From: Pestalotiopsis fici W106-1
Taxonomy: Eukaryota; Ascomycota; Sordariomycetes; Amphisphaeriales; Sporocadaceae
NCBI RefSeq assembly: GCF_000516985.1
Contig: NW_006917097.1
Span: 1,550,001-1,614,000, forward strand
Reading direction: 5' to 3'
Length of the DNA stretch: 64,000 bases
In this document: positions 20,387 to 31,936 of the stretch, piece by piece
Position numbering within the stretch: position 1 is the stretch's first letter
Layout of the letters: every line of letters starts with the position of its first letter
The notes under the pieces: model-generated
Told to the model about the DNA's origin: nothing
What the model saw: only the letters and a program-made list of their open reading frames with translations
Databases searched by the model: none
Made by a program: the position numbers and the translations under genes

Positions 20387-22911
20387 TCAGCCGCTAAGAT
20401 CAACCGGCTCATGTCTTGGAGAGTTCTCTTCGTCATGCTGGGCTTCTTGTAGCTTCGCATCACGAGTACCCTCCTCACCGAGCTGTTCATCAACAACGGC
20501 AGCTAGCTCAGCCTTGAGCTTGCGTTCCAGGCGATCGAGAATCCACTCGGCCTCCTCCTTGCTGTCCATGAGCGGACTGCGGTGTCCTACCCAACTCCAC
20601 TTGATCAAGCTATCGTCTGCGGGGTCAGTGCTGTCCGTGTTGCCGCTCGGCTCGCCCTTGGGATCTCCGGCACTGCTTGAGTTGTTCGTCGTGGTTCGTG
20701 TTGCCTTGTGCATGGCCACGCGGCTTAGATTCACTGCGTCGGTGGTGCTCGGCTTCCGCGCTGGTTTTCTGTGTGTACCGGCACTGCTCTCGTCCTCGCC
20801 TACGAGACGCAGATACCACGCCCATTCTTTGAACGAGTACTTGCGCGGAGGTGTGTGCTGGAGGTGTCTGGTCACCCGGGAAATTTCGTCAATGAGGACA
20901 AGGTGGTACTCGGCACGGGACTTGGGTAGCTCAAGTGGGAGGTCTTTACGCTCCGTGGTATCTGTCCTTCGGGGCAGTCCAAAGTCCGCGCTTCGTCTGG
21001 AGCTGTGTGCCGACCCTGGCCGCGACCGGTCTCTTGATTTTGCTTTGCGATCTGAGGACAATCCTCGATTAGATCTGTCTGGCCGTGCAAGTGGATCGCT
21101 CAATTTGATGGATCTGGTCGGTTTGCCTGTATTGGTCGTGTCATTTGTGTCGCACTTGGTAGGGCCTTGGGCGGGTTTTGACGAATTTTGAGCCTCTACG
21201 TCGCCGCTCTTTTCATTAGATGATGACCTATCTCTACGATGAGGCCTTGGTGCAACAGAGCCGTCTTCCATGTCTGTGTCTTCGTCCTCATCACGATCTC
21301 GAGCAGCGCCAAAGAAACCTGGTGGCTCCTCCTCAATGTCAATGTCTGCGTACAAGGTGCCGAAGGAAAGTCTTCCCAGCGCCAACTTGGCTTCTTTCTT
21401 AAAGCCATGTTCGCCCGGCAGGATCGTCAGATTACCGAGCTTCAGCGTACCATCCCTAATCCATTTCACGACAGTGTCGCCGGCGTTACTGATGAGTACC
21501 GTCATGGTGGGCAGCGCCAGCAAAGACCAAAAGACGAAAAAGGCTTTGCCACAAGGCGAAATGGGTGACAGGTCGCCGTAGCCAATGGTCGTCAGTCCAG
21601 TAAAGGCAAAGTAGAAGGCGTCAAAGTATGACCAGCCCTGGTATGGTGCTTCCGCTTCTTGGAAGATCTTTGCACCAACGGTCCAGAGAACGAACCATGT
21701 GGACGCAGATACAGCCAAGGCCATCCATCTCCTCTTAGTCGAGGCTCGTTTTTGAATCTTTCTCATTAGGTGGAACTCCTTTTCGCGGCGTTCAAGTTCA
21801 GTCAGAGGGCTCTGGCTGACGTCTAATTCGAGGTTGCTATCACCGGGATTGTCTTCTATAGGGTGGAGGATTCCGTCCTTGCCACGACGGCGTAGGTGGC
21901 GCAAATACTGTCGTCTCTTGTTCTCCAGCATGCGAGCGTCAAGGCGGCGCTTTCCACGATCCAGAATAAGGCTTCGGATAGAGCCAATGACCAGACCCAA
22001 GCTAATCACGCCAATGAGAGCATAGGGTATGAGCAGACCGCGGCCAAGAGTAGTCATGGGTGAATAGTCACCATAGCCCACAGTGAACAGAGTCACGTCG
22101 GCCCAGTAGACTGCATCGAGATACTGCCAGTTCTCGATATGTGAAAATACAAGGGCGCCACACAGGAGGTACATTAAAAACATGATGGTTTGCAGCATCA
22201 GGGTACGTTGACTAGTGGTCAGGCAAAAATCCTTTTCATAATGTCCAACCTGGGCACCCCAAACAGTGATGGACATGAGCGTGGCCACGACAAAGTAGAG
22301 CACAGCCGCAAAAATGCCGTAATAGAACGCCTGCGACCAGACATACTCTATTTCTGGCTGCTCAATCAGCGGCCCAGCGGCGGTGCAGGCCAAGGCTAGA
22401 AGGCAGATGGCAGATATATACCAACCGACGATGGTGATGGGCTGAGCGATAGAGAAGCGTACTCTTCTGGTCATGTTGAGCAGAAGAAAGACATTGGCAA
22501 CAATGGCCAGTGCCAGCTGTGCGGCGTTGACGCCAATGAGCCATGGAGGATCAGCGACGAACTCGGCCCTGGAGATGTCTGAGCCGGGAATAATGTGCAT
22601 CCGCCATTGTTTGACGAGGGCGCATATACTGAAGGCTGATGCGACAGGTCCCAGTGTGCCGGCAATCATGGGAAAGGCCGAGCTAGCAAACCACCATCGA
22701 CTACATGGTATAGTCAGAAACGCCGAGAGTCGCGATGATGATGATGATGATGGAGCGAGTATACTGCTGGTGTTTGCACTAACCTGGGATCAAGGTGGAC
22801 TGCCGGATCCGCCGCAATGACACTCTGGCGCTCAGCTTCGCCCTTGGATCGTTGGCCGTCGACATCTTGTGTATAGTCGTCAATATTGTCGCCTAGATCT
22901 GCATCGTTCAT
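20387..22911 (-). CDS. TOK1: TOK1-type two-pore outward-rectifying potassium channel
   Basis: Exons on the minus strand are 22911-22784 and 22700-20387, giving 813 aa. The intron (22783-22701) starts GTTAGT and has a CTGAC branch site. Its removal builds DPSRWWFASSAFPM, a block typical of fungal TOK channels just before the first membrane helix. Two pore loops are visible: TVGYGDYSP (GYG near residues 251-253) and TTIGYGDLSP (GYG near 416-418). Helices arranged as six before pore one and two around pore two fit the 8-TM, two-pore TOK layout. A basic cytoplasmic linker (LDARMLENKRRQYLRHLRRR) separates the pores. The long C-terminal tail, about 350 residues, is charged and Ser-rich, as in other fungi. 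The protein should sit in the plasma membrane and pass K+ outward on depolarisation. A 22-A run lies in its leader. Confidence 0.94.
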
Positions 22912-25553: not shown

Positions 25554-26797
25554 TTAGACAAAGCCCTTGAGAACTGCTGCCTCGGCGTTCAGGATGGAGG
25601 AACCAGCGGCACCAATGACGGCTTTGCAAATATTAGCTTGGAAGTCTTGCTACTCGAGGGAAGAAACTTACTGTTGTGGCTCAACGCCACAAACTTGATA
25701 TCAAAGATACGGCTCTCGTCCTCACGGACTCTGCCAACACTGACAGTGTAACCGCGGCCAAGGTCACGGTCCAGACGGGGTTGCGGGCGGTCGGCATCGT
25801 CAAAGACCATGATGCTGGGCTCGGGGGCGCTGGGGCAGCCAAGCTTCTGGGCCTCACTGACATAGTTGCGGAGAGCAGCCTTGACATCCTCAACCTTTGG
25901 CGGCGGGCGGCTCTTGAAGCGCAGACTGACGCAGGCGGTGTGGCCGTCCAGAACGGGAACGCGGTTGCATGCGGCCGACACGCGCAGACCCTCCTGCTCG
26001 ACAAAAGCCGTCTTGTCGTCGCGGATGCCGCCCAGAATCTTGCGTGCCTCGGTCTCCAGCTTGTCCTCCTCGCCCGAGATGAAGGGCACGACGTTGTCGA
26101 TAATGTCCATGGAGCTCACGCCCGGGTAGCCAGCGCCCGAGACGGCCTGCATGGTGACGACGGAGACGGTGTCGACCTCGCCGAACTGAGCCTGCAGGGC
26201 AGCGAAGGGGATGACGAGACCAATGACGGCGCAGTTGGAGTTGCACACCAGGAAACCCTTTTCAAGGCTGTGGTGCTTCCTCTGGTGAGGAATGAGATCG
26301 AGATGCGGCAGGTTAACGGTGGGAACGACGAGTGGCACAAGGGGATCGCGACGGTAGTTCTTTGCGTTGGAGAAGACGGCGAGGTTGGCCTTCATGAATT
26401 CCATCTCTGAATGAGCCAATGGTTAGTATAACGGTCATTTTGAGCATCATGTTCCTTGGTCTCTTCCAGATACAACCCGTCGCTCAACTAGGCGCGAATG
26501 ACAAGACTCACCAACTTCACCTGCCACATCCGAGTCCAGACCGCTAAAGACAATGTCGCACTCCAAGAATTCGCTGGCCTTGCACTCCTTCACGACCAGG
26601 TCGGCGACCTTGCCCATGGGGGAGGCCTGCTTCCACCTCACGGCATCCTTGTACTTCTTTCCGGCAGATCGCGACGAGGCACCGACGGCGTGGAGGACAA
26701 AGTGCGGGTGGTTCTGGAGCAGGAGGATGAAGCGCTGGCCAACGGAGCCGGTAGCACCCAGCACACCAACCTTCTTTGTCGGGAATTGCGACGCCAT
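25554..26797 (-). CDS. HOM2: Aspartate-semialdehyde dehydrogenase
   Basis: Exons on the minus strand are 26797-26512, 26406-25672 and 25621-25554, giving 362 aa, the normal length for the fungal enzyme. It reduces aspartyl phosphate to aspartate semialdehyde with NADPH, the branch point for threonine, methionine and isoleucine synthesis. The N-terminal [13 protein letters not shown] is the nucleotide-binding loop. [11 protein letters not shown] near residue 155 holds the catalytic cysteine. Further family blocks are [14 protein letters not shown] and [16 protein letters not shown]. Introns are 105 nt (TACTAAC branch site, TTCAG acceptor) and 50 nt. The last exon encodes [20 protein letters not shown]. 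The start at 26797 ([14 protein letters not shown]) puts the Rossmann loop at the usual position. The enzyme is absent from animals. A near-consensus Gcn4/CPC1 site lies about 100 bp upstream. Confidence 0.97.
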
Positions 26798-26898
26798 TCT
26801 GGAGATTTTCTGGGGGGGTATTGAGATTCGACAAACGATGAACTCGAGCAAGAAATTATCTACGAATCGTAGGTCGTAGAATAGAAAAGTGCGTCACT

Positions 26899-28153: not shown

Positions 28154-28170
28154 AAAAAAAGGCAAAAAAA
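28154..28170 (-). terminator. Pol III terminator of the tRNA-Pro gene
   Basis: On the tRNA coding strand, a run of seven T begins 10 nt after the discriminator base (28170-28164) and a second run of seven T follows (28160-28154). T runs of this kind end RNA polymerase III transcripts. Confidence 0.85.
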
Positions 28171-28205
28171 GATGTTGGGTGGGCTTGACCGGGGATTGAA
28201 CCCGG

Positions 28206-28262
28206 CTATTGAGATTGTTAGTATATGATTGATAACTCATGATATTTGAAGTTGTGACTTAC
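28206..28262 (-). other. 57-nt GT-AG (spliceosomal-type) insertion inside tRNA-Pro
   Basis: On the tRNA strand it begins GTAAGTCACA, contains ATACTAACAAT with the perfect branch sequence TACTAAC, and ends CTCAATAG. The branch A is about 12 nt from the end, a normal fungal spacing. Its size matches the mRNA introns of this window (46-105 nt). It lies at the exact boundary of tRNA positions 48 and 49, which is not where the tRNA splicing endonuclease normally cuts. Confidence 0.85.
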
Positions 28263-28273
28263 GACCTCCTGCA

Positions 28274-28284
28274 TTTTTCAGTTT
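28274..28284 (-). other. Canonical 11-nt tRNA intron in the anticodon loop
   Basis: The anticodon loop region is 18 nt instead of 7. The extra AAACTGAAAAA follows base 37, one base 3' of the anticodon, the standard site for introns removed by the tRNA splicing endonuclease. Confidence 0.85.
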
Positions 28285-28320
28285 CCCAAAGCAGGAATCA
28301 TACCACTAGACCATCAAGCC

Positions 28321-31836: not shown

Positions 31837-31936
31837 NNNNNNNNNNNNNNNNNNNNNNNNNNNNNNNNNNNNNNNNNNNNNNNNNNNNNNNNNNNNNNNN
31901 NNNNNNNNNNNNNNNNNNNNNNNNNNNNNNNNNNNN
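31837..31936. other. Assembly gap (100 N)
   Basis: Exactly 100 N, the conventional filler for a gap of unknown size, flanked on both sides by T-rich/CT-rich homopolymer sequence. Anything between 31.75 and 32.0 kb may be missing or mis-spaced. Confidence 0.99.

Follow-up and report, generated by a model that had tools for sequence, protein, structure and literature searches.

The window analysed here is a stretch of 64,000 nucleotides from the genome of Pestalotiopsis fici W106-1, a member of the Sporocadaceae (Amphisphaeriales, Sordariomycetes) and not of the Hypocreales, as an earlier note made from the letters of this DNA had wrongly implied. On its minus strand, at 28181..28320, lies a tRNA-Pro(TGG) gene that is interrupted twice: its anticodon loop holds an intron of 11 nt, and an insert of 57 nt separates tRNA base 48 from base 49. 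The earlier note had placed the gene at the right coordinates and left its strand unstated. The gene is located on contig C7 (3.55 Mb) and possesses the features of a nuclear tRNA gene, namely the cloverleaf, the anticodon, A and B boxes, and a T-run terminator. Its parts are listed below in window coordinates, each with the basis of its assignment.

28181..28320, minus strand: precursor gene of tRNA-Pro(TGG) with two introns (Rfam RF00005, 33.3 bits; ARAGORN after removal of the 57 nt)
28285..28320, minus strand: tRNA bases 1-37, with the 5' strand of the acceptor stem, the D arm and the anticodon TGG (ARAGORN and sequence)
28303..28313, minus strand: A box TGGTCTAGTGG (sequence)
28274..28284, minus strand: 11-nt anticodon-loop intron of the ordinary kind (ARAGORN and sequence)
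28263..28273, minus strand: tRNA bases 38-48, with the 3' strand of the anticodon stem and the variable loop (ARAGORN and sequence)
28206..28262, minus strand: 57-nt insert between tRNA bases 48 and 49, built like a spliceosomal GT-AG intron (ARAGORN, sequence and excision control)
28257..28262, minus strand: 5' splice site GTAAGT (sequence)
28217..28223, minus strand: branch site TACTAAC, whose branch A (28218) precedes the intron end by 12 nt (sequence)
28206..28208, minus strand: 3' splice site TAG (sequence)
28181..28205, minus strand: tRNA bases 49-73, with the T arm, the 3' strand of the acceptor stem and C73 (ARAGORN and sequence)
28193..28202, minus strand: B box GGTTCAATCC (sequence)
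28164..28170, minus strand: T7 run that starts 11 nt past the end of the tRNA, likely the Pol III terminator (sequence)
28154..28160, minus strand: second T7 run, at +21, likely a back-up terminator (sequence)

The register of the 11-nt intron can be shifted by one base, and ARAGORN lets it start one base later. Elsewhere in the window, a minus-strand gene at 25589-26893 resembles aspartate-semialdehyde dehydrogenase by eye, and ATACTAAC recurs in its intron, which is predicted at 105 nt. Positions 31837-31936 consist of exactly 100 N and are either an assembly gap or a withheld stretch. At 20387-22789 the window encodes a potassium-channel protein with 100% identity to PFICI_10128 of P. fici W106-1 across the compared 96% of the ORF.

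The Rfam match runs from 28320 to 28181, lies above the cut-off of 29 bits and contains a large insertion in the variable region. ARAGORN reports no tRNA on the full 140 nt, also with anticodon introns allowed, and still none when only the 11 nt are taken out. Once the 57 nt are taken out, the remaining 83-nt gene is called as tRNA-Pro(tgg) with an 11-nt anticodon-loop intron, and with both introns taken out a 72-nt tRNA-Pro(tgg) is obtained. These results agree with the earlier description of an 11-nt intron and of a 57-nt insert at the 48/49 border that carries GTAAGT, TACTAAC and AATAG and whose removal restores a 72-nt tRNA. In its extended GTAAGT...TAG ends, its CTRAY branch site and its length, which is typical of the lineage, the insert corresponds to a U2-type intron.

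The ends of the insert cannot slide because the adjoining letters differ. Its borders are thus set by the tRNA alone, and they coincide exactly with GT and AG. Under two simple base models, and with CTAAC counted as the branch motif, the chance that an insert with fixed borders contains GTAAGT, CTAAC at the proper distance and YAG is 5.6e-8 to 9.7e-8 per gene. For the 258 tRNA genes given for P. fici (PMC4320822), the corresponding chance is about 2e-5. The paper with this gene number also names a public RNA-seq set of the fungus, GSE60046. Virtual excision of intron-like stretches from 277 kb (71 sequences of the P. fici genome, window included) produced a junction-spanning tRNA in one of 641 cases, the tRNA-Pro(TGG) gene, and none of 641 random excisions of equal lengths from the same set gave a tRNA. 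The motifs themselves are not unusual. The pattern GTAAGTN{10,30}TACTAAC, outside which the tRNA intron falls with 33 nt between its motifs, occurs at 51 places genome-wide versus 64 for the reversed pattern, and GTAAGT...AG...GGTTCRANYCC occurs once, at the tRNA-Pro gene, versus once when reversed. The splice motifs alone are at chance level, and it is their exact fit within the tRNA that is improbable.

The length of the insert also agrees with that of other introns. In 219 kb that were not chosen for introns, and with the tRNA and U6 introns left out, GTRNGT...CTRAC...YAG motifs of 50-69 nt were found 19 times versus a shuffle mean of 9.7, and none of 20 shuffles reached 19. This is the sole length class clearly in excess in the 219 kb; motifs of all lengths number 57 versus 35 to 64 in the 20 shuffles. 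Those of 55-59 nt alone number 7 versus a mean of 2.9, a value reached by one of 20 shuffles. Introns of Fusarium core genes have a median length of 57 nt, identical to that of the insert, and the consensus GTAAGT, CTRAY and YAG (PMC5677156). A stretch found by motif at locus L067, apparently within a protein-coding gene, shares the GTAAGT, CTAAC and CAATAG pieces with the insert. No introner-like repeat copies were seen, as a 171-bp stretch matches the genome once, at itself, a comparison that short relatives could escape.

Further evidence comes from the U6 snRNA gene of the same genome. A Rfam U6 search, in which 47 of 3290 candidates were scored so that others could be missed, detected one U6 gene (L090), the match of which spans only positions 1-66 of 105.

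L090:1501-1651, genome C1:2868938 onward: U6 snRNA gene with an intron (Rfam U6 and sequence)

After U6 position 66 the DNA reads GTAAGT, CTAAC and TAG, and by eye U6 resumes with TAAGGATGACACG; the intron has 56 nt, and a T run follows the second exon. Since the Rfam match ends at the intron, a family search catches only the first part of this gene. This agrees with the fungal U6 precedent to which the earlier note had appealed, and introns in fungal U6 genes are known (PMC5832005). U6 is a Pol III transcript (PMC10484740). It is thus very likely that the P. fici spliceosome acts on at least one product of Pol III, and if the detected U6 gene is the working one, it has to do so for its own formation. 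This is the strongest support for a spliceosomal mechanism at tRNA-Pro. Fungal U6 introns, including the one in P. fici, resemble the insert in that they are GT-AG introns of similar size and interrupt a small RNA that is structured and made by Pol III. Unlike U6, however, the tRNA host has internal A and B boxes and a second intron of the endonuclease type.

The two introns may even be related. In both, the branch A is intron nucleotide 45, followed by 11 nt in U6 and 12 nt in the tRNA intron. Their alignment score is 15 against a mean of 8.9 for shuffles that keep the motifs, and 190 of 5000 shuffles reach 15; for the 3' tail alone, 569 of 20,000 shuffles are as good. The same score is at most 11 for 13 predicted mRNA introns and 9 for the L067 intron. 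It is possible that the tRNA intron was derived from the U6 intron by transfer (reverse splicing), for which these marginal values are a weak hint.

With these data, the 57-nt insert is probably a spliceosomal intron in a nuclear Pol III tRNA gene, from whose transcript the spliceosome would remove the 57 nt and the tRNA endonuclease the other intron. That the product is a working nuclear tRNA obliged to pass both machineries is a more demanding claim, towards which we incline with greater reserve. A standard U2-type spliceosomal intron would have been inserted into the tRNA-Pro(UGG) gene between bases 48 and 49. Pol III would transcribe the gene from its intact A and B boxes and stop at the T runs, whereupon the U1, U2 and U6 snRNPs would recognise GUAAGU and UACUAAC and the 57 nt would leave as a lariat. 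The 11-nt anticodon intron would be taken out by the tRNA endonuclease and ligase in the usual way, and RNase P, RNase Z and CCA addition would finish the tRNA. We infer both the order of these steps and the use of the tRNA product. The requirement for two splicing machines, as proposed in the earlier note, is thus retained as the best explanation of the sequence, with the U6 intron in its support, whereas the accompanying suggestion that the gene may be read by two polymerases is unneeded because U6, itself made by Pol III, carries an intron of this kind.

Predicted folding of the precursor bears on how such processing might proceed. The whole precursor folds with a z-score of -2.52, and 2 of 200 shuffles fold as well. 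In the predicted fold the acceptor, anticodon and T stems are kept, but not the D stem, and the region of the 5' splice site pairs with the D arm. This pairing might slow the binding of U1 and counts against the proposed splicing. The position of the insert would leave all four arms able to form, so that end processing need not await splicing. In favour of the proposal, runs of four or more T are absent from the tRNA-Pro precursor, which the two T7 runs follow. The longest T run in the insert is two, but the lack of T4 there is uninformative as a sign of Pol III transcription, because a T4 run is lacking from all 13 predicted mRNA introns too (some of the 13 are likely false).

Among the alternatives, a redundant gene copy that was recently silenced by the insertion, and is now untranscribed or spliced too poorly to matter, is unlikely, although the most probable of them. 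Pattern searches found ten proline tRNA genes (six AGG, one CGG and three TGG), counts that are lower bounds; a Rfam tRNA search of the genome scored 63 of 1581 candidates and is no census. ARAGORN confirmed all seven of the Pro genes submitted to it; the other three (L040, L044 and L045) were identified by eye. The anticodon loop of L046 (C3:3549448), the one Pro-CGG gene among the ten, contains an intron of 34 nt, and none of the other six genes submitted to ARAGORN has one as long. The second insert is present in only one of the ten genes, the tRNA-Pro(TGG) gene at 28181..28320; in the nine others the variable loop is short and measures 4 to 5 nt. Two further Pro-TGG genes, L049 on C3 and L079 on C11, look intact and are free of the insert. 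Hence, the gene in the window is not the sole source of UGG decoding and its loss may be tolerated; AGG proline tRNAs can add cover by wobble reading. The earlier idea that splicing of this tRNA could be essential is weakened by the insert-free Pro-TGG genes, of which there are at least two. These redundant genes and the solitary insert are what a silenced copy would lead one to expect. However, no decay is seen, and the stems, the A and B boxes, C73 and the T runs are all intact. Nor is a spliceosomal intron by itself lethal to a gene of this kind, since U6 carries one.

Comparison with the other proline genes points in the same direction. The mature part shares 54-56 matches of 72, net of gaps, with L049, L079, L046 and L039. 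All seven pairs of the acceptor stem, the strands of which lie on either side of the 57-nt intron, are of the Watson-Crick type, and relative to the same four genes 1 to 4 of these pairs are changed on both sides. Because of these paired changes the two exons look as if they had evolved as one RNA. A divergent sequence with intact arms is as expected under selective maintenance.

A transcript made mainly by Pol II, with an exon-intron-exon structure and a spliced RNA that carries a tRNA-like fold, released or not, is very unlikely. The aspartate-semialdehyde dehydrogenase-like gene (product assigned by eye) does lie about 1.4 kb downstream in the same orientation. However, the Pol III boxes are intact, the paired T runs resemble those at the other proline genes, all nine of which have two T runs within 40 nt, and given the U6 precedent a Pol II transcript is unneeded.

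It is extremely improbable that the tRNA splicing endonuclease takes out the 57 nt as it would an ectopic intron of the type found in red algae and nucleomorphs, and that the GT-AG signals are coincidental. The eukaryotic tRNA endonuclease is fitted to introns at 37/38. The fold check suggested in the earlier note was carried out, and a bulge-helix-bulge motif (3-nt bulges flanking a 4-bp helix) was not found at the insert ends in the 12 registers tried. The canonical register gives, with wobble, 2 of 4 pairs in the central helix, and it gives 2 of 4 in the outer stem and 0 of 4 in the inner stem. Two of the 12 registers do reach 4 of 4 helix pairs, wobble counted, but these have at most 2 of 4 outer pairs and 1 of 4 inner pairs. 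Ectopic introns in the D arm and T arm of Cyanidioschyzon tRNAs (PMC9602550) lend this explanation some plausibility, as does the description of many ectopic introns in the Guillardia nucleomorph that have no defined bulge-helix-bulge (PMC3978253). In view of the latter, a missing motif alone is no proof of the spliceosome. It also speaks against the endonuclease that splice signals at fixed borders would arise by chance at a rate of only about 1e-7.

Long-arm tRNAs are enlarged in the variable region, where the insert sits, but it is just as improbable that the mature tRNA keeps the insert as an extended variable region, since the 57 nt form no stable hairpin (MFE -1.7 kcal/mol, z 0.17), nine of the ten proline genes have a short variable loop and the intron signals are exact.

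The spliceosomal intron proposed here may be compared with several known systems. Canonical eukaryotic tRNA introns lie at 37/38, and the 11-nt intron of the tRNA-Pro gene is one of these; the 57-nt insert differs from them in its position at 48/49 and in its mRNA splice signals. Like the insert, the ectopic tRNA introns of Cyanidioschyzon merolae and of nucleomorphs occur outside 37/38, with several per gene in C. merolae (PMC9602550, PMC3978253). However, tRNA-Ile introns of C. merolae have bulge-helix-bulge motifs (PMC9602550), whereas in the P. fici insert none was found and GT, branch site and AG are present. Many of the Guillardia introns also have no defined motif (PMC3978253), a likeness that is drawn from their description and not from their sequence. 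Among small structured RNAs, fungal U3 snoRNAs also contain normal spliceosomal introns (PMC5832005). Unlike tRNA-Pro, U3 belongs to another RNA class and has a trimethylguanosine cap (PMC5832005). According to this 2017 paper, frequent interruption is known for no small structured RNAs other than U3 and U6 (PMC5832005). An intron in SRP RNA, a further precedent named in the earlier note, was not confirmed: one study argues against introns in basidiomycete SRP RNA (PMC4605306). In P. fici, the SRP RNA gene L091 (G000:C6:1644739-1645033) matches Fungi_SRP over its full length (1-293/293) and has no sign of an intron.

A 2026 review places the splicing of tRNAs outside the remit of the spliceosome (PMC13149111), and the tRNAscan-SE 2.0 paper describes a search for noncanonical introns in archaea (PMC8450103). 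No description of a nuclear tRNA with a spliceosomal intron was recognised in the literature searched, coverage of which was partial, and priority is unproven. The feature is best explained as an addition to the spliceosomal introns already known from small RNAs made by Pol III, with a class of host that had no precedent in the literature searched. That a complete spliceosomal intron should lie in a tRNA gene suggests that the border between tRNAs and the spliceosome can be crossed. Such a gene makes it possible to examine, in a natural setting, whether a short, uncapped and tightly folded Pol III transcript can be processed by the spliceosome, and in which order two splicing systems work. Together with the U6 intron of P. 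fici, it also bears on the question of how Pol III genes acquire spliceosomal introns.

Genome-wide patterns built on CTAAC, GTAAGT and CTGAC, which cover those branch- and splice-site spellings in introns before the T arm, revealed no further tRNA with such an intron among the matches read. The matches were no commoner than those of the reversed control patterns (CTAAC, 2 versus 14 and 8 versus 21; GTAAGT, 1 versus 1; CTGAC, 14 versus 19). Both outcomes count against a spliceosomal intron as the best explanation. For CTAAC, 2 of 2 and 7 of 8 matches were read by eye, the eighth being the tRNA-Pro gene itself, and one was also submitted to Rfam and gave no match; the 14 CTGAC matches were judged on the matched letters only. 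The 5' half of the Pro-TGG gene had no match in the viral contigs and genome contigs scanned. Of the 63 tRNA matches listed in the Rfam search, 8 fall on contig C20 (26,268 bases), a small contig that is taken to be the mitochondrial genome because its tRNAs form an AT-rich cluster.
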